DNA from: Bacteroidota bacterium
Lineage (GTDB): Bacteria > Bacteroidota > Bacteroidia > B-17B0 > Aurantibacillaceae
Direction of reading: 5' to 3'
Length of the DNA: 64,000 nt
Assembly: GCA_013697245.1 (NCBI GenBank)
Contig: JACCXH010000050.1
Span: 124,001-188,000 of the forward strand
A program made the position numbers and the translations under genes. The notes under the pieces are model-generated. The model did no database searches and was not told the DNA's origin. It was given only the letters and a program-made list of their open reading frames with translations. Below, piece by piece: positions 2,427-46,080 of the stretch (positions are counted from its first letter, which is position 1; every line of letters starts with the position of its first letter).

Positions 2427-2434
2427 TAAATTTG
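2427..2434 (+). promoter_or_regulatory. Candidate promoter entering the cassette array
   Basis: TAAATTTG is a perfect TAnnTTTG box pointing into the array, about 80 bases before the first cassette gene. It could act like an integron Pc promoter. A -33 element is only weakly visible (TTAG at 2402-2405, 21-base spacer). Confidence 0.35.
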
Positions 2435-2437
2435 ATC

Positions 2438-2507
2438 TGGCTAAGTCGTTTTTAAACGTTTGTAAGTATTTGTAAACGTCTTTATGGCGCTTAGCCACAA
2501 GTTAGGC
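2438..2507 (+). repeat. Left boundary half-site of the cassette array
   Basis: TGGCTAAG (2438-2445) and CTTAGCCA (2490-2497) form an inverted repeat around an internal ACGTTT / AAACGT pair. It ends in GTTAGGC (2501-2507), an exact match to the integron core site GTTRRRY. The segment GCGCTTAGCCACAAGTTAGG is nearly the reverse complement of the left arm of the third spacer (CCTAACAGCGGCTAAGCGC), so it looks like the right arm of an attC of the same family. No RYYYAAC partner lies about 190 bases upstream. It could be an attI-like site or the remnant of a deleted cassette. Confidence 0.55.
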
Positions 2508-2515
2508 ATAACTTT

Positions 2516-2911
2516 ATGACGACACATCCAATAGCACTTGACAAAAAAAAGGTAGGGACTTATCCTGCTAAAACCTTTTCTGGAGGTGGTTACTTTTATG
2601 ATGACGTTCTTGAGTATCGGGTTTGGGTTCATCCAGCTGATGACGCAAATGACACCGACTACTTTAAAGCCTTTGCAGACTATGAATCTGCTAAAAAATA
2701 TGCTGAGAACACGGACGGGTCAGAAGATCCCTGTGTCTTGATCTTGCAAAAAGAATATATTGACGAACCTGAAGACGGAGTCTTTGTTAAAATAAAAAAG
2801 CGCAGAATTACAGAATGGTTAGTGCCTTGGCTCAGTGACAGCAAAAGGGACACGGACAGCCTTGACAAGTTCATTGCAGACCGAAAAGCAACGCCTAACA
2901 CGGGGCCATAG
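2516..2911 (+). CDS. Cassette 1 hypothetical acidic protein
   Basis: A 131-residue soluble-looking protein with no signal peptide or membrane segment. It contains GGYFYDDVLEYRVWVHP near residue 25, an Asp-rich middle (PADDANDTDYFKAF), then ILQKEYIDEP and a basic KIKKRRITEWLVPWL near 93-107. The ATG at 2516 follows the cassette junction directly. The last residues TPNTGP and the stop at 2909-2911 are encoded by the attC arm itself, so the C-terminus was shaped by the recombination site. Proteins with the KKRRITEWLVPWL ending occur beside or within cassette-like arrays, sometimes labelled acetyltransferase-like, but I see no acetyl-CoA motif. Function unknown. Confidence 0.75.
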   Translation: MTTHPIALDKKKVGTYPAKTFSGGGYFYDDVLEYRVWVHPADDANDTDYFKAFADYESAKKYAENTDGSEDPCVLILQKEYIDEPEDGVFVKIKKRRITEWLVPWLSDSKRDTDSLDKFIADRKATPNTGP

Positions 2912-3084
2912 CGCCAGCCGGACAGACACTTTACATGCAAAAGCAATTTTAATTTGGTGCCTTCGGCGTGACATCGTTTTGCTTTTGCTCAAAATATTTT
3001 AACTTCACGGTGGACTTCGGAACACTTTAGCAACTGGCGGCAATTGGACACGCGGCCGGCGCAAGCCCCGAAACCGTTACTTGC
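2893..3084 (+). repeat. attC-like site A
   Basis: GCCTAAC (2893-2899, exact RYYYAAC) opens the site and GTTACTTGC (3076-3084) closes it. The arms pair well: ACACGGGGC and GCGCC-GCCGG on the left, CCGGCGCAAGCCCCG on the right. An inner promoter-like pair lies at 2978-3007. At about 190 bases it is longer than the usual attC range of roughly 60-140. Confidence 0.65.
2978..3007 (+). promoter_or_regulatory. Promoter-like pair inside attC-like site A
   Basis: TTTG (2978-2981), 18-base spacer, TAACTTCA (3000-3007). It faces the cassette 2 gene, whose ATG is at 3129. Confidence 0.4.
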
Positions 3085-3128
3085 AATTTTAGACACTAAT
3101 TCGTACATTTAATATTTAGACGCATAAA

Positions 3129-3725
3129 ATGAAAAAATTTATTTCAATTTTTATATTTCTTGGACCCCTCTTGACAATCGGACAAGAGAGTTCAAATAAA
3201 GTCATTCCGAAGAGAAATACGATTTATCTGGAGGCATACGGACAAGGGGTTTATAATTCCCTTTCATTTGACCGCCTTTATCGTTTGGACAAAAAAGTAA
3301 GAACTTCATTTACTGCTGGGCTGACTTTTCTTCCTCTTTTACATAGACCTGCTGAAATGCTAGCCATAGGAACTCCTGTTTCATATAATTGGTTGTTTGG
3401 ACAAAAAAGAAGTCATTTAGAATTAGGTATAGGGTTGACATTTTTGAGTTTAACAAAGCGAACTAACTCCGACATAGAACCAGCAATGTATTCCACGAAT
3501 AGTTTTCTATACTTGACTCCAAAAATCAGTTACCGATTTCAAAATCCAAACGGAGGACTTTTCTTTCGTGTATCATTTGCTCCCACAGTCGCTTTATGGT
3601 CGAGAGAAAGATATCGTTCCCTCGCATACAACGACCTTTTACGTCAAGCAGACAATCCAATTCCTGGATCCGGGGATATGATATTCCCATGGCCTGGCTT
3701 TAGTCTAGGTTATACATTAAAATAA
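3129..3725 (+). CDS. Cassette 2 outer-membrane barrel-like protein
   Basis: A 198-residue exported protein. Residues 1-18 form a signal peptide (MKKFISIFIFLGPLLTIG, cleavage before QESS). The rest alternates polar and hydrophobic residues in short strands, with aromatic girdle residues (YLEAYGQGVYNSLSFDRLY, LELGIGLTFLSL, YLTPKISYRF, FFRVSFAP). The last strand is FSLGYTLK, an aromatic-rich ending with no sorting domain, as in small 8-strand outer-membrane barrels. No specific family is recognised. It is the only gene in its cassette and has its own upstream promoter-like pair within attC site A. Confidence 0.7.
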   Translation: MKKFISIFIFLGPLLTIGQESSNKVIPKRNTIYLEAYGQGVYNSLSFDRLYRLDKKVRTSFTAGLTFLPLLHRPAEMLAIGTPVSYNWLFGQKRSHLELGIGLTFLSLTKRTNSDIEPAMYSTNSFLYLTPKISYRFQNPNGGLFFRVSFAPTVALWSRERYRSLAYNDLLRQADNPIPGSGDMIFPWPGFSLGYTLK

Positions 3726-3730
3726 AAACT

Positions 3731-3923
3731 GCAAGTAACACGGGGCAATTTCGTCAGCGGGCGGACGAGCGAATCGCAAAGCCAATTTAATGTTTGGCCG
3801 ACGCCAGAACTTTTTTTCATTTGGCTTTGCTAATAAACATTAGTACATTTAATAAACATTTGTGGGTATAGACAGTTGAATGTTCCAAACGCCAACTACT
3901 TGTAGTCGCAAACCGTTAGGTGC
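3731..3923 (+). repeat. attC-like site B
   Basis: GCAAGTAAC (3731-3739) to GTTAGGTGC (3915-3923), 193 bases. An inner hairpin pairs AAAGCCAA with TTGGCTTT. The block TAATAAACATTAGTACATTT is shared almost base for base with sites C and D. The outer arms pair less well than in site A. Confidence 0.65.
3820..3851 (+). promoter_or_regulatory. Promoter-like pair inside attC-like site B
   Basis: TTTG (3820-3823), 20-base spacer, TACATTTA (3844-3851), pointing at the cassette 3 gene. Confidence 0.45.
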
Positions 3924-4074
3924 AAGTTTAGAAGACACAACGGTTCGACAGTTTTCTAAATTGTCATTTCAATTTATGGACAAAGGAGTAATCAGAAAAT
4001 CCAACCTGACAAAAGAGTATGAGGCGGACGCTGAAAAGCCAATGAGTAAGCAACAACTAAAAACAGTAAAAAAA

Positions 4075-4938
4075 ATGAAAACAATAACAATTATTCTTAT
4101 TGGTGTTTTACAACTAATTTATTCAGTTTCAGTTAAAGGACAGGTATTAACGGCGACATCAGTACCTACAAGTTATGTTAATTGTTATACTTGTGTTGGA
4201 ACTGCGACTTGGACTCCTAATTTCGCTGTAACTTATACAATCCCTTTGGTACTAAATACGTATTCGATAAACGAATTATCAAAACCTATTTATTTAACAA
4301 ATTATAATTTTAATATTCCATCAAACTCAATTATACAGGGCGTAGAACTAACATTAGGCACCTATACTGCCAATTATTATTTTTATAAAGACAGTACAGT
4401 AAATTTAATTTACAATAATACTGCAATTGGATTAAATAAAGCATTAAATTCAAATTTTACTTTTTCTCCAAATCCACGCTTTTATGGTAGTTCAACAGAT
4501 TTGTGGGGAACTACATTAACCGCAACAACCATAAACAGCCCATCTTTTGGTGTAGCAGTTGCAGTAAAATATAATTCTACACAAACTTCGGACGCTATGG
4601 CAATGGCAGGTACAACTTATACAACTTTTCCAAGTTTAAAAATATTTTATTCATTAACTACAGACGTTAACGCAATAAGTATTGATACTAAGGAAATTGA
4701 CGCTTATTGTTCAGAAAGTAAAATAATTTTAAGATTAAAAAATACTAATGTCAAGCAAAGCTATAACGTTAGACTTTATGACGCTATTGGTAAATTAGTT
4801 TTAGACGAAAAAATTATTTATGATAATAATCATAGCGAATATATTATCGATTTGAAAAAAGACATTAAAGGGATTTATTATTTGAATATCAATAATGATG
4901 CTTTTATAAGTAAAACGAAAAAAATATTTGTTGACTAA
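4075..4938 (+). CDS. Cassette 3 secreted protein with T9SS sorting domain
   Basis: Start chosen at the ATG at 4075, which opens a signal peptide (MKTITIILIGVLQLIYSVSV). The frame is open back to 3880, but that start would sit in the preceding attC and before the cassette edge. The 287-residue product has a Thr/Asn-rich beta domain (CYTCVGTATWTPNF, then SNSIIQGVELTLGTYT) resembling an extracellular lectin- or jelly-roll-type fold without a recognised family. It ends in a C-terminal sorting domain: VRLYDAIGKLVLDEK, DIKGIYYLNINN, and a basic end. The sorting domain predicts outer-membrane export by the type IX system, so the cassette is useful only in hosts with that pathway. Confidence 0.75.
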   Translation: MKTITIILIGVLQLIYSVSVKGQVLTATSVPTSYVNCYTCVGTATWTPNFAVTYTIPLVLNTYSINELSKPIYLTNYNFNIPSNSIIQGVELTLGTYTANYYFYKDSTVNLIYNNTAIGLNKALNSNFTFSPNPRFYGSSTDLWGTTLTATTINSPSFGVAVAVKYNSTQTSDAMAMAGTTYTTFPSLKIFYSLTTDVNAISIDTKEIDAYCSESKIILRLKNTNVKQSYNVRLYDAIGKLVLDEKIIYDNNHSEYIIDLKKDIKGIYYLNINNDAFISKTKKIFVD

Positions 4939-4943
4939 AACCA

Positions 4944-5136
4944 GCACCTAACAGCGGCTAAGCGCAAGGCGGGCGGAACGGCGCATCGCAAAGCCAATTT
5001 ATTGTCCGGTCGACACCGGAACTTTTTTGCATTTGGCTTTGCTAATAAACATTTGTACATTTAATAAACATTTCGGCGTGTAGACAAAGGAAGCTTCGTA
5101 AGCCCGCCGAACGCAAGCCCCGAAACCGTTAGGTGC
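4944..5136 (+). repeat. attC-like site C
   Basis: GCACCTAAC (4944-4952) to GTTAGGTGC (5128-5136), 193 bases, with the AAAGCCAA / TTGGCTTT inner stem. Its left arm CGGCTAAGCGC differs from the CACGGGGC arms of A and B and matches the array's left-boundary half-site instead. The right arm GCAAGCCCCGAAACCG is the A type. It may be a hybrid site. Confidence 0.65.
5032..5063 (+). promoter_or_regulatory. Promoter-like pair inside attC-like site C
   Basis: TTTG (5032-5035), 20-base spacer, TACATTTA (5056-5063), the same geometry as in site B. It faces the lipoprotein gene of cassette 4. Confidence 0.45.
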
Positions 5137-5167
5137 AAGTGGCGGACAGACCTCGATAAAAACTGAC

Positions 5168-6202
5168 ATGAGAAAAACATTCATACTGACTCTTTCCATT
5201 TTCATCTTAGTTATACAAGGTTGCCATACCTATTTAATTGACAAAGAATCAGCGGCAAGGCAAATGACTAATTTAAAAGTTGAACGAGGAAGTGGCAAGA
5301 GGAGCGGGAACATAAAATATTCCAACGACTGGACATATTTAATAATAAAAAATGAAAAATTAAGTTTTGATACTATATTTCCATTTGATATTAAATTTCT
5401 TTTGAAATCAGGTATTAATAGTGGCTGGTGGGGTACAACTAGACTAATTTATAAAGAAGGCTATTTTATTTCTTATAATGATACTACGCTTAATACCAGT
5501 CCTAAGTGTAAGTTTTGCAATATAAATATTGATTCTATAGAAAAAATAGAAATAAGAGGTCCCCGAAAAATTAATTTTGTTTCTTACAACGACTCTCATT
5601 GGCATGTTGACTATCGAATGGGTTTGACTTCCAACTTTGTTAATCTAAAGACAAAAAGCTATCTAGACAATTATTTTAATCTCGGTTTTGGTGCATCAAT
5701 TTACTACAGAAATTTTATTTTTTCTTATTGCTTTAACCCCACGACACTATTAAGAGTAAAAGAACAATTCAAAAATACTGCCGGTGACTCAATCAGACCA
5801 TACGCCAATACTTTTTGGAAAACAAATGGTCCTTACTCAATAAATATAATTAAACACAATTTTGACTTCGGTTATGAATTTAAAATCAATAACAAAATTA
5901 GTTTAACCCCAACAATTGGTGCAGGACTATGGCATTTCACCATAAAAGACTCTGCAAACTACAGAAAAAATATTAATTCACTTTACGACATTAATCTCGG
6001 ACTCTCTTTGAAACGTTTTGTATATGTATCAGAAGGCGCTCGCTTTTTTTATGGACTTCAAGGTTATGCCAGTTATAGTAATGTAACCGACAAACTTTCT
6101 TCTTTTGGTAATCCGTATTGGACCATCACAATTAATTGCGGCTTTAAATTTGTACCACGAGGGTTGGTTGCCCTTAGTCTTTTGTCAGGTTTAGGCAATT
6201 GA
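5168..6202 (+). CDS. Cassette 4 lipoprotein
   Basis: A 344-residue protein with a lipoprotein signal peptide: MRKTFILTLSIFILVIQGC, lipobox VIQGC with lipidated C19. The ATG at 5168 lies 39 bases into the cassette. The N-terminal half has a YKEGYFISYNDT segment and a CKFCNIN pair near 115. The C-terminal half is strand-rich and glycine/aromatic-rich (LGFGASIYYRNFIFSYCF, DFGYEFKINNKISLTPTIGAGLW, FFYGLQGYASYSN), like an outer-membrane-associated beta structure. No family is recognised. A role at the cell envelope is inferred from the lipobox only. Confidence 0.75.
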   Translation: MRKTFILTLSIFILVIQGCHTYLIDKESAARQMTNLKVERGSGKRSGNIKYSNDWTYLIIKNEKLSFDTIFPFDIKFLLKSGINSGWWGTTRLIYKEGYFISYNDTTLNTSPKCKFCNINIDSIEKIEIRGPRKINFVSYNDSHWHVDYRMGLTSNFVNLKTKSYLDNYFNLGFGASIYYRNFIFSYCFNPTTLLRVKEQFKNTAGDSIRPYANTFWKTNGPYSINIIKHNFDFGYEFKINNKISLTPTIGAGLWHFTIKDSANYRKNINSLYDINLGLSLKRFVYVSEGARFFYGLQGYASYSNVTDKLSSFGNPYWTITINCGFKFVPRGLVALSLLSGLGN

Positions 6203-6251
6203 TTTCAGTAAGCAGACACGTCAACAAGACGCATCTGTGTGCCGCCACCAG

Positions 6252-6435
6252 ACACCTAACACGGGACAATTGCGTCAGCGGGCGGACCGGGGCATCTCAA
6301 AGCCAATTTATTGCCTGCTTCGCAGACTTTTATTTTTCTTTGGCTTTACTAATAAACATTTGTATCTTCATATAAACATTTCGGCAAACAATACTTCATA
6401 AACCCGAATGCGCCAAGCCGCAAACCGTTAAAATA
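6252..6435 (+). repeat. attC-like site D
   Basis: ACACCTAAC (6252-6260) to GTTAAAAT (6427-6434), about 184 bases. It has the same central block (CAAAGCCAATTTATTG, then TTTGGCTTTACTAATAAACA). The closing core GTTAAAA is one base off GTTRRRY. Confidence 0.6.
6339..6370 (+). promoter_or_regulatory. Promoter-like pair inside attC-like site D
   Basis: TTTG (6339-6342), 20-base spacer, TATCTTCA (6363-6370), facing the cassette 5 gene. Confidence 0.4.
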
Positions 6436-6923
6436 TGACTAAAGACTTTACACAAGTAATGTCCGAGCGGACAGACAAACAATTGGTTGACATTCTGACC
6501 CTAAAACGTGACGAATATCAACCAGAGGCAATTTTTGCTGCAGAGAAAGAAATCGAACATCGACAAATTAATGTTGAGACATTTTATTCAGAAGTACAAA
6601 TTCATGAAATTCAAAATTCCACTCAAATAGACAAGGCGGACATGGAATTTGAGTGGTATCATAAAATACTAACTATTTTCCTCCCTGCTACCATTATTGC
6701 TGTAGTGACTTATTTATTTAACCTTCTAGGACAGGGTCCAATATTAAAGGCACTTGGTTTTCCGATAATGATTCTTATTCATTACGCTATTCATAATCGT
6801 CTTAAGGACACCGGTTATATAAAAATGGCTAAAGACTTTTTAAAATGGGTTAATTATACACTATATATATACATTGGACTGATTTTAGTTGCAGGACTGT
6901 CAATTTATTTCTTTTTCATGTGA
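6435..6923 (+). CDS. Cassette 5 membrane protein
   Basis: A 162-residue protein. Residues 1-50 are soluble and contain MSERTDKQLVDILTLKRDEYQPEAIFAAEKEIEHR, split over two helices. This N-terminal module recurs in many Bacteroidota integral membrane proteins of unknown role. Three hydrophobic segments follow, about 75-97, 103-120 and 138-161 (ending IYIGLILVAGLSIYFFF), so the C-terminus is in the membrane. The ATG at 6435 is 7 bases inside the cassette with no ribosome-binding site. Function unknown. Confidence 0.75.
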   Translation: MTKDFTQVMSERTDKQLVDILTLKRDEYQPEAIFAAEKEIEHRQINVETFYSEVQIHEIQNSTQIDKADMEFEWYHKILTIFLPATIIAVVTYLFNLLGQGPILKALGFPIMILIHYAIHNRLKDTGYIKMAKDFLKWVNYTLYIYIGLILVAGLSIYFFFM

Positions 6924-6934
6924 CAGGAAAGGCT

Positions 6935-7039
6935 GCGACTAACAGCAAGCGGGCGAGCGCATAAGGCTTTTGCAAATTTAAGTTCGCTTCGCGGAAAGAA
7001 ATTTCCATTTTGCAAAAATCTAAAAAACATTTATCTTTA
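6935..7039 (+). repeat. Right boundary attC-like half-site with promoter-like pair
   Basis: GCGACTAAC (6935-6943) followed by AGCAAGCGGGCGAGCGC matches the left arms of sites B-D. TTTG (7009-7012), 19-base spacer and TATCTTTA (7032-7039) give a promoter for the gene at 7057. No GTTRRRY follows, so the right half of the site is missing. Confidence 0.45.
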
Positions 7040-7056
7040 AATATAAAACAGATATA

Positions 7057-7488
7057 ATGAAAATTTATTTTTTGATCTTTATTTTCACACTCAACTTTGC
7101 AGCTTTTGGAAACAGCAAAACCACTTTTGGCGATACCACAAAAATGGGTCTCACTAGATCAAAAAAAGCAGTCTTAACTGCCGTTACTTATACCGGCACG
7201 GTAGATAAGGGTAACCGTAAAATGGAACTGGTAGTGGCTATTATTGATGAGGCCATAAGTATTGGTGCGCCTACATACAATGAAGGCAACCGCGCGGCCT
7301 GTTACAAAATATACGAAGGTGCGGCATACAAGATCTTGCACAAGTATGGCAAAAAATGTACTGAAACCGCCGACATTTTAGAAACTGCCCTCGAAAAATC
7401 ATACGGTAATTATTCTATCACCGATAAGGCTTGGATCATGCGCATGGCTTTTGATAAAATAGAAGGTGTGCAAACACAAACGCAGTAA
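7057..7488 (+). CDS. Small secreted protein
   Basis: A 143-residue product with signal peptide MKIYFLIFIFTLNFAAFG. The mature part has no recognised domain. Visible features are a central LVVAIIDEAISIGAPTYNEGN segment, two cysteines (C92-like in RAACYKIYEG and C111-like in GKKCTETA) that could form a disulfide, and a helical C-terminus (ADILETALEKSYGN). It is transcribed from the promoter-like pair at the right edge of the array and followed by a very strong terminator, so it is probably a single-gene unit. Whether it belongs to the array or to the old chromosome is unclear. Confidence 0.65.
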   Translation: MKIYFLIFIFTLNFAAFGNSKTTFGDTTKMGLTRSKKAVLTAVTYTGTVDKGNRKMELVVAIIDEAISIGAPTYNEGNRAACYKIYEGAAYKILHKYGKKCTETADILETALEKSYGNYSITDKAWIMRMAFDKIEGVQTQTQ

Positions 7489-45414: not shown

Positions 45415-46080
45415 TTATTTAGCTATGTTTTTATCCTTATCTAAAAATTTATTAATGGCGTAATGGCCAAGATAAATAAAAGGAATAAGTGCAACGGCAA
45501 TTAACAATTTAAACGAATAGCCCCAACAGGCGTTGTGTATAAACTCATCCGTTGTCCATTTACCGGGTAAAACAAAAGCTACGTACTGCACAATAAATGT
45601 ATCTACTAACTGGCTTACTACTGTGCTACCGGTGGCACGAAGCCAGATCATCTTATTGCCGGTCTTGTTCCTAAAGATCCAAAAAACGTAAACATCCACC
45701 AATTGCGAAGCAAAAAAAGCAATAATGCTTCCAACAATTATCCATTGGCTTTGCCCAAAAACAATTCTAAAATTCTCATCATTTACCGGGCTAAACTGAA
45801 CGGCATTAATGTTTAATCCAATTGAAATTAAAATAAAAGTATAAGCAATTAAACCAACGGTAATATAGGTTAGCTTGCGAACACCTTGTTTACCATAATG
45901 CTCATTAATAAGATCGGTTAGTATAAAAACAACCGGCCATAAAATAATACCAATACTTTGGGTAAACAAACCAAAGAATTGAATTAGTTTTCCACCGATC
46001 AATTCGGCAACAATAGCATTGGTAATAAAAAATCCTGCCAGAATTATAAATACAAGATCTTTACGTTTATTAAAATCCAT
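45415..46080 (-). CDS. Queuosine precursor transporter (VUT/QPTR family)
   Basis: A 221-residue protein with about six hydrophobic helices. Family landmarks are AGFFITNAIVAELIGGKLIQFFG, LWPVVFILTDLINEHYGKQGVRK (split here), ASQLVDVYVFWIFRNKTG, and RATGSTVVSQLVDTFIVQYVAF. This is the YhhQ/DUF165 transporter that imports preQ0 or preQ1. With tgt at 36494 and no de novo queuosine genes in view, salvage of the precursor is plausible. Start and stop are separated from crcB by five bases. Confidence 0.88.
   Translation of the reverse strand: MDFNKRKDLVFIILAGFFITNAIVAELIGGKLIQFFGLFTQSIGIILWPVVFILTDLINEHYGKQGVRKLTYITVGLIAYTFILISIGLNINAVQFSPVNDENFRIVFGQSQWIIVGSIIAFFASQLVDVYVFWIFRNKTGNKMIWLRATGSTVVSQLVDTFIVQYVAFVLPGKWTTDEFIHNACWGYSFKLLIAVALIPFIYLGHYAINKFLDKDKNIAK

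Follow-up and report, generated by a model that had tools for sequence, protein, structure and literature searches.

The five-gene array near the start of the 64,000-nucleotide stretch of Bacteroidota DNA analysed here (the window) raises the question of whether its genes are integron cassettes and, if so, what kind of enzyme would have moved them. A sequence-only reading had described an integron-type cassette array without an integrase. Our main reading, to which we give a probability of roughly 85%, is similar in that the window array would be an integrase-less gene-cassette cluster of a Bacteroidota integron system. Judged from sequence comparison, the system is integron-like in its working, yet it falls outside the canonical IntI type. 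Integrase-less clusters (CALINs) are defined for IntegronFinder, in the part of PMC9024848 cited here, by at least two attC sites found by covariance model and no integrase nearby. In the present work, spacers were located by our own model, R1, in place of the IntegronFinder covariance model, and 10 of 105 R1 rows that were weak or doubtful were removed before counting, including window positions 45699-45795 and 6965-7061, the latter being a weak match of the truncated spacer 5 (E 0.037).

The window array spans 2501-6943 and holds five plus-strand genes, one per unit, in units that open with GTTR and close in RYYYAAC-like cores, as had been described (Table 1). The start proposed earlier, 2438, has to be moved, as the first core lies at 2501 and 2438-2500 is part of a left boundary. 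This boundary aligns flush right with the attI sites of relatives (for example TTTATGGCGCCTATAAGCTA followed by GTT in L166) and contains a hairpin with a z of -4.2; its TTTATGGCGCTTAGC is also present at the left end of another array of this genome (C73) and of clusters in L297 and L317. The cassette 3 ORF has a sub-threshold match to Por_Secre_tail (E 8.5e-6, 26.4 bits against a cut-off of 27), and an Rfam scan of the 64-kb window gave zero matches.

Table 1. Predicted features of the window array, with positions counted from the first letter of the window.
Feature	Position	Strand	Basis or remark
Left boundary, attI-like end without integrase (TTTATGGCGCTTAGCCACAA before GTT)	2427..2500	+	attI alignment with relatives, hairpin
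Cassette 1	2501..2899	+	131-aa ORF 2516-2911, no Pfam family; own cores GTTAGGC/GCCTAAC, 7 bp (counted by eye)
Spacer 1, attC-like	2900..3075	+	arms pair
Cassette 2	3076..3739	+	198-aa ORF 3129-3725, no Pfam family; own cores GTTACTTGCA/TGCAAGTAAC, 10 bp
Spacer 2, attC-like, chimeric	3740..3914	+	arms of two different types, the right one being CGCCAACTACTTGTAGTCGC; arm score third lowest
Promoter-like element in spacer 2, TTTG-N20-TACATTT, facing cassette 3	3820..3850	+	motif match
Cassette 3	3915..4952	+	ORF 3880-4938; own cores GTTAGGTGC/GCACCTAAC, 9 bp
Spacer 3, attC-like	4953..5127	+	R and L arms pair in the fold
Promoter-like element in spacer 3	5032..5062	+	motif match
Cassette 4	5128..6260	+	344-aa ORF 5168-6202, no Pfam family; own cores GTTAGGTG/CACCTAAC, 8 bp
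Spacer 4, attC-like	6261..6426	+	weak arm pairing
Cassette 5	6427..6943	+	162-aa ORF 6435-6923; end core unlike start core, GTTA/TAAC, 4 bp only (counted by eye)
Spacer 5, truncated	6944..7040 (end approximate)	+	left arm and loop present, right arm and next core gone

The start of each of cassettes 1 to 4 was said to complement the inverse core at its own end, and this holds over 7, 10, 9 and 8 bp, the divergent cassette 2 included. When the ends in the window are instead paired with the start of the next unit, as in the integrated site, the matches are 4, 4, 9 and 4 (counted by eye), and the value of 9 arises because cassettes 3 and 4 have a common start. Across 56 adjacent units of the genus the mean run of own matches is 8.23, compared with a mean of 4.75 and a maximum of 5.36 in 2000 shuffles. 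As in canonical integrons, the cassette start is complementary to its own 3' inverse core, with a match of at least 7 bp, in 43 of the 56 units (shuffled 4.1, maximum 13), and the same-site control gave a mean of 4.49 with 3 of 79 at 7 bp or more. These 43 units were preselected for agreement over positions 1-7. Beyond that stretch, position 8 is complementary in 98% of them and position 9 in 91%, where shuffles give 64 and 41%, and positions 12-15 are complementary in 79-86%, compared with 26-55% in shuffles. Core matching shows each unit to be a gene module between inverted cores (GTTAnnnnn ... nnnnnTAAC).

Gene modules alternate with attC-like spacers, and arm scoring shows that the predicted arms tend to pair mutually, as the L'' and L' arms of attC do in canonical integrons. 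Over 71 distinct pairs the own arms scored 13.4, against 7.19 (sd 0.26, maximum 8.24) in 2000 shuffles, and in 38 of the 71 no other partner scored higher than the own one. The four lowest arm scores include those of window spacers 2 and 4, and extra bases together with an A.C mismatch are seen by eye in many left arms. The folding of each spacer as a single bottom strand, proposed earlier as a check, came out unevenly for the sites as integrated: spacer 3 beats its shuffles (z -4.03, 0 of 200 as low), and spacers 1, 2 and 4 do not (z 0.15, -0.92 and 1.13); truncated spacer 5 gave -1.91. In addition, 60 of 79 spacers contain TTTG-N19..21-TANNTTT on the top strand and none on the bottom strand (Markov mean 1.4, maximum 6), an element that we take to be promoter-like by comparison with the Bacteroidota promoter consensus. 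It may drive the next gene, a weaker suggestion because the full TANNTTTG promoter form occurs in 0 of 79 spacers and the spacers are mutually related.

The description "integrase-less" fits the window and does not extend to the system. In relatives, arrays begin approximately 100 bp behind a tyrosine recombinase, which retains the catalytic motifs and in alignment lacks the I2 insertion. The spacing from GxxKDR to HxLRH is 63-68 in the 79 of 80 recombinases measured and 107 in 19 of 20 measured IntI, the two outliers (242 in a member from the genus, 347 in an IntI) being taken as the pattern matching an earlier place, and the RHH motif is present in 0 of 80 array-family recombinases compared with 20 of 21 IntI. 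The standard IntI model scores one family member (L144) below its cut-off. On these motifs the recombinase linked to the arrays resembles IntI but is distinct from it and lacks I2. No relative of the recombinase was found in phages at 1e-50.

An attI-like site is conserved approximately 100 bp downstream of the integrase in relatives and likewise in this genome (L043), so that attI adjoins the integrase gene as in canonical integrons. Strict chains of cores (9 of 9) lie 40-180 bp past the recombinase at 34 of 80 loci, compared with 1 of 80 in the reversed upstream control and a Markov mean of 0.7, and strict chains of at least two at 17 of 80 loci compared with 0 in both. A looser match of 8 of 9 gave chains of at least two in 24 loci (upstream 1, Markov mean 3.4), and another looser match gave 29 against 5 reversed upstream controls, the controls thus rising along with the loci. 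The strict chain is absent at 46 of 80 loci; the contig ends within 1.5 kb at 39 of 80 on the 3' side and at 2 of 80 on the 5' side. No attI is visible downstream of the same-clade integrases L145 and L148, at the 334-aa recombinases L158-L160, or at L154 and L155. One genome (G001) has the integrase and attI and lacks an R1 match because its spacer is of another loop type; another (G021) has 5 array sites, yet only Xer-like matches at the cut used.

Arrays of this type occur in 26 of 40 genomes of the genus, and this genome has eight further contigs with such arrays besides the window contig. Of 395 genomes sampled from the class, 198 have a recombinase of the array-linked family, a count of presence in which only part of the members are shown to head arrays. 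The IntI-type recombinase that was to be sought elsewhere in this genome is absent over the TIGR02249 cut-off; the genome has a copy of the array-linked family on contig C13, split between two frames, whose attI-like site has a start core but lacks an end core to match it over 4 kb. With its integrase gene broken up in this way, this genome probably can no longer move the window cluster by itself. This genome's own XerC and XerD (C53, C56) were rejected as the cassette enzyme: with the XerD of two relatives they stand apart from all other rows on a branch marked 98* of a quick tree, the base of which is not resolved and the XerC branch of which is long. Around XerC and XerD (L044, L045), loop-motif matches did not rise above background.

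Evidence that cassettes are exchanged comes from sister clusters. The right-flank gene of the window (7057-7488) occurs only in this genome among the 40 of the genus, so no empty site can be read there, and clusters C22 and C12 were used instead. Left of the C22 array, the flanking sequence is 75-77% alike in L297 and L317, which belong to two other species of the genus. The likeness ends 45-66 bp short of the first core, and no two of the three species have the same first cassette, which agrees with the earlier expectation of other cassettes at the same site. Similarly, the C12 cluster and L308 have both flanks alike and different contents, and cassettes homologous from core to core are present in other genomes.

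These homologous cassettes often carry another spacer. Families were picked by eye from a looser unit search, whose 62 noisy rows were mostly self-overlaps and flanking genes that were removed by eye so that only array cassettes were retained, and from further comparisons; the L093/L150 pair, from outside the 62 rows, brought them to 12. The 3' attC-like spacer differs in 9 of 12 families (L287/L309 being ambiguous) and is kept in 3, so the attC is frequently not inherited with the gene as it is in canonical integrons. In the nine reassorted pairs, the 12 nt ending at AAC have 97% identity and the following 12 have 55%, and at the 5' border the 12 starting with GTT have 98% and the preceding 12 have 54%. 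A cassette of this genome is among the nine (C73: gene module 86%, next 100 nt 49%). The aligned pairs show gene modules and spacers reassorting at their GTT and AAC borders. As such, the earlier view that both cassette ends come from one site is upheld for the cores, and the rest of the attC-like spacer is often not carried along with the gene.

A working model can be proposed. The recombinase would cut G^TT and would excise and insert circles, each of one gene and one hairpin site, acting in trans on scattered clusters, the window cluster included. Without I2, it may complete the second strand exchange between two folded sites, and this would swap the hairpin heads and give spacer reassortment. 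We give somewhat less than even odds to such a living I2-less integron with folded attC-like sites and a second strand exchange, in which heads are swapped and genes keep their cores. The main competitor, which we consider unlikely, is that ordinary cassette movement of the integron type is accompanied by homologous recombination or gene conversion, which exchanges spacers among their repeated copies. Genus spacers are indeed alike (65.6% between random pairs, sd 8), and chimeric spacers such as window spacer 2 resemble crossovers in the loop; however, the breaks fall directly after AAC and directly before GTT over nine families, and the left arms of the L220 pair diverge from the second base onward.

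It is far less probable that an ordinary IntI integron placed the cassettes and that its IntI gene was lost later, which would make this a canonical CALIN. The cassette anatomy and own-end cores are integron-like, 3 of the 12 families retain their 3' spacer, and other classes of the phylum frequently have IntI over the cut-off (a draw across the phylum gave 105 of 395 overall). Against this, only 1 of 395 genomes of the class has such an IntI and none of the 60 nearest genomes does (this one, 36 others of the genus and 23 of the class), an I2-less recombinase occupies the head of the arrays, and spacers often part from the gene. With IntI over the cut-off absent from 394 of 395 class genomes and a linked enzyme without I2, the idea of a canonical integron merely minus IntI is not sustained. 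Finally, gene modules as transposon-like units with terminal inverted repeats among resident spacer repeats are considered highly improbable: their inverted ends of 9 to approximately 15 bp and the end of homology at both borders would suit such units, but the five window genes include no Pfam transposase, the entry point is fixed approximately 100 bp behind a tyrosine recombinase, modules and spacers alternate in the arrays read throughout, and three families retain the spacer.

If the I2-less integron is a living system, it would be common in Bacteroidota, would account for cassettes gaining new attC sites, and would represent either a missing intermediate of integron origin or a parallel invention. 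Reviews count the phylum among integron hosts (PMC8618304, in the section cited), and the cited part of PMC9024848 states that Bacteroidetes proper had earlier yielded only cassette-less integrases, to which it adds a single complete integron from Salinibacter ruber. The I2 insertion is described in the passages cited from PMC4792948 and PMC7790495 as recognising extrahelical bases and impeding the second cleavage, and these passages ask how attC was selected before I2, intermediates being lacking. This question becomes directly testable through the present system, which could reveal the first origin of integrons. No account of this cassette system was found in searches of open-licence PMC papers. 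Furthermore, a tet(X3) plasmid has, around that gene, a member of the array-linked recombinase family together with an attI-like end and a spacer that is truncated; therefore, the system may bear on resistance genes leaving Bacteroidota.

Among known systems, NCBIfam NF040815 ("site-specific tyrosine recombinase/integron integrase") already provides the NCBI name of some members, a name without an account of a cassette system, and the member L144 scores 211.8, below the cut-off of 220. The top Foldseek match of the predicted recombinase structure is IntI4 (PDB 2A3V; Z 19.4 over 257 residues, rmsd 5.4, 32% identity), and XerA (5HXY) is level with it at Z 21.2 (VIA-align); unlike IntI4, the array-linked recombinase lacks the IntI insertion (LPxALxRKYPNA...RRHH in 13 IntI of the phylum). 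XerC, XerD, XerA and the CTXphi-type elements that exploit Xer, as treated in the cited parts of PMC4792948 and PMC7790495, share the lack of I2 and possibly action on folded sites, whereas the array-linked recombinase owns an attI and a cassette array and lies apart from this genome's XerC and XerD. Canonical integrons differ in that the integrase here is without I2 and in that a gene is often inherited without its spacer; core pairing over approximately 15 nt with a fixed mismatch is listed as a further difference, having been read in this system alone. An attI downstream of the integrase gene is also found in archaeal integrons (PMC9668308, in the part cited) and so is not unique. Nevertheless, the system shares with canonical integrons and CALINs, as set out in the cited part of PMC9024848, tandem one-gene units in a single orientation with inverted cores at start and end, and it likewise has hairpin-forming spacers, an attI at the head and integrase-less arrays elsewhere in the genome.

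The window array, five gene units at 2501-6943 all on the plus strand, works like an integron cassette array. As the sequence-only reading had proposed, each of units 1-4 begins with GTTR followed by a variable core whose reverse complement stands at the end of the same unit (7, 10, 9 and 8 bp); unit 5, for which this was not claimed, matches over 4 bp. Within single sites, a unit's end matches the next unit's start over 4, 4, 9 and 4 bp. The four complete inter-unit spacers measure 166-176 bp each, and spacer 5, behind unit 5, is truncated. In a folding test against shuffles, spacer 3 alone of the four complete ones did better than its shuffles. The proposed integrase-less (CALIN) cluster stands as an integron-like cassette array; as a canonical CALIN, two tested features would fail. 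As a scattered cluster, the array sits at an orphan attI-like end; one of its spacers is chimeric, its last unit is worn, and the genome's integrase, located elsewhere, is broken. No Pfam family exceeded its cut-off in the array genes, one of which has a sub-threshold sorting-tail match. Just left of the array, the minus strand carries a tandem duplication of a 171-aa gene (1272-1787 and 1812-2327; 82% DNA identity over 288 nt). Another gene, at 7057-7488, begins directly behind truncated spacer 5 (region 6944-7057), whose promoter-like element it may use, and was found in no other of 40 genus genomes.

BLAST of spacer 3 against the whole own genome found more sites on contigs C22, C73, C36, C52, C12, C33 and C9, and R1, a covariance model of the central spacer hairpin, added C69. 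At E <=0.001, R1 matched in 26 of 40 genus genomes (the window's counted) and in 23 of 33 good ones. Run on 28 sources it gave 105 matches at E <=0.5, 95 of which, with window spacer 1, formed a set of 96 sites; a fixed pattern located both cores in 79 of these, giving 56 neighbouring units. Own-core runs averaged 8.23 in these units (43 at >=7 bp) against 4.75 in shuffles (4.1 units at >=7 bp), and same-site core pairing averaged 4.49 (3/79 at >=7 bp). Spacer arms paired with their own partner at 13.4 against 7.19 when shuffled (71 distinct pairs), the own partner being top or tied in 38. These comparisons indicate that the window's spacer and core pattern is a family, not chance. In the 43 units, preselected for a match at positions 1-7, own cores also matched at positions 8 (98%) and 9 (91%), almost never at 11 (2%), and again at 12-15 (79-86%), no position being prominent beyond about 19. 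This outer stretch is not known to belong to described attC sites. The element TTTG-N19..21-TANNTTT occurs on the top strand of 60 of 79 genus spacers and on the bottom strand of none, so that each attC-like site may hold the next gene's promoter. One array, in genome G030, carries an IS3-type-like insertion (by eye) within a cassette (locus L093, 5132-7258), and this unit is the only one there with non-matching cores.

That related genomes should carry different cassettes at one site was borne out at the sister cluster C22, across three genomes. Its left flank aligns with those of loci L297 (G021, 77%) and L317 (G026, 76%), the alignment stopping 45-66 bp short of the first core; three different first cassettes follow, with cores GTTAGGGGC, GTTATGTGC and GTTAGCGGT. 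An orphan attI-like end, TTATGGCGCTTAGCGAGTA|GTTA, is common to L297 and L317 and also opens the own C73 array; the window array's left end agrees with it up to TTAGC. Similarly, both flanks of cluster C12 are alike in G007 (L308), enclosing about 2.8 kb in the own genome and 5.9 kb in G007.

No IntI, the canonical integron integrase, exceeded the TIGR02249 cut-off in the window's own genome or in any of 60 genomes (own, 36 other genus and 23 of the class). The integrase-less claim holds for the window but not for the system. Contig C13 of the own genome carries an IntI-like recombinase split over two frames (stops counted), with an attI-like element that no matching end core follows within 4 kb. 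Of 14 genus genomes examined, 12 encode the recombinase in open frames of 375-429 aa; the copy in G035 is divergent, with 288 bits on A4, the array-integrase profile, against 574-651 for other members. Immediately 3' lies a conserved element ending ...TATANNNNA, then GTTR and a core, not in view behind loci L145 and L148. The cassette that comes first after this attI-like element in the complete genome G001 has a full own-core match, GTTATGTGC (9/9), and a short-loop spacer.

The genus recombinase aligns with IntI either side of the IntI-specific insertion, not across it. This absence is directly visible in the alignment and gives a motif spacing of 63-68 in the 79 measured among the best 80 of at least 567 relatives, against 107 in 19 of 20 IntI measured. 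Among the same 80, the catalytic motif set is complete in 72 and a C-terminal SPxD, common to the aligned IntI rows, occurs in 70. In a quick tree of 58 rows, 13 IntI formed one branch (99) with the array integrases outside it, not recovered as one clade, and XerC/XerD set apart (98). The predicted structure (pLDDT 77.6, pTM 0.47) had IntI4 2A3V as top Foldseek match, and a second aligner placed XerA level with IntI4. Given the missing insertion, tree placement, motifs and structure, the array recombinase is therefore IntI-like but not IntI.

The at least 567 relatives came from an A4 scan of named genome contigs; the best 80 include Flavobacterium, Kaistella, Chryseobacterium, Pedobacter, Algoriphagus, Runella, Rufibacter and others. 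Two MAGs in the set bear the label Nitrospirae, and one Ignavibacteria. Walking 3' of the integrase with core complementarity as sole criterion gave strict chains at 34 of these 80 loci, with >=2 units in 17 (reversed upstream 1 and 0; Markov 0.7 and 0), the first core lying 99-107 bp past the integrase match in 18 of the 34. Relaxing the match to 8 of 9 bases gave 44 loci with chains and 24 with >=2 units (7 and 1 in the upstream control; 9.1 and 3.4 in Markov sequences). Contig ends fall within 1.5 kb of the integrase downstream in 39/80 and upstream in 2/80, because assemblies break on repeats. The family occurs at E <=1e-60 in 198 of 395 class genomes, array heading being shown for part of them, and IntI over cut-off in one. 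In a phylum draw of 395 genomes, IntI exceeded the cut-off in 105 and the family reached 1e-100 in 41; some genomes outside the class (G063, G068, G077) have both.

Relatives at 1e-60 occur in 38 plasmid records, 24 of them Acinetobacter. On a complete 66-kb plasmid of Chryseobacterium sp. SNU WT5, a family integrase and attI-like end precede a mostly same-strand gene run (Crp/Fnr, RidA, metallophosphoesterase, GLPGLI, SRPBCC) with one strict core match; this plasmid is possibly a mobile form of the system. On Acinetobacter indicus plasmid p80-1-2-tetX3 (locus L281, 4001-6170), the recombinase beside tet(X3) scores 299 bits with A4. An attI-like end with GTTATGTGCC precedes tet(X3), and a TAAC core follows, then a truncated spacer of 61 nt resembling genus spacers (score 31, against a mean of 12.0 and a maximum of 19 in shuffles and <=20 for other 100-mers of the stretch); the cores before and after the gene do not match each other. 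The region order is given as xerD-tet(X3)-res-orf1-ISVsa3, and the word integron is absent from the main text of that source as available (PMC7494873).

Twelve cassette families with >=2 copies among the collected loci, picked by eye, kept their 3' spacer in three cases and had another in nine, one ambiguous; random spacer pairs share 65.6% identity (sd 8).

Cassette copies compared by unit and 3' spacer, and promoter-like elements in window spacers (spacer ends by a simple pattern, rough, for L100/L154 and the seven rows L287/L310 to L093/L150)
Feature	Location	Unit	Spacer
Spacer kept	L100/L154	98%	100%
Spacer kept	three G030 copies	95-97%	88-91%
Spacer kept	three copies in L108 (G031)	96-97%	99-100%
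Other spacer	L287/L310	97%	62%
Other spacer	L220 pair	95%	60%
Other spacer, ambiguous	L287/L309	95%	77%
Other spacer	L098/L320	93%	72%
Other spacer	L095/L104	86%	63%
Other spacer	L107/L108	77%	52%
Other spacer	L093/L150	73%	40%
Other spacer	L097 pair	88%	next 100 nt 64%
Other spacer	L037 (own genome)/L303	86%	next 100 nt 49%
Promoter-like element, TTTG-N19..21-TANNTTT	window 3820-3850, top strand		
Promoter-like element, TTTG-N19..21-TANNTTT	window 5032-5062, top strand		

Identity breaks sharply at both unit borders, from 97% to 55% at the end and from 54% to 98% at the start, which argues that gene and spacer are separate modules, the gene with its two cores forming one and the hairpin spacer with both its arms the other. 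The stretch GCAGACACGTYAACNNGACGYATCTGTGTGCCGCCACCAGACACCTAAC is common to cassettes with different genes (window 6211-6260; locus L036, minus strand, about 9940-9890), so some conservation extends into the gene module.

According to PMC4792948, I2, the IntI insertion, recognises extrahelical attC bases and so impedes second cleavage. The same paper states that on duplex sites IntI remains able to finish the second strand exchange, and that the existence of attC before I2 poses a chicken-and-egg problem; PMC7790495 points to missing intermediates. For an I2-less enzyme on two folded sites, the second exchange would be unhindered. Its product would be two sites with heads swapped, lying between unchanged genes. 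The main rival for this step is homologous recombination as the source of the head and spacer swap. In canonical integrons, attC is part of the cassette and belongs to it, whereas the spacer here differs between copies of the same cassette in nine of the twelve families, one of them ambiguous.
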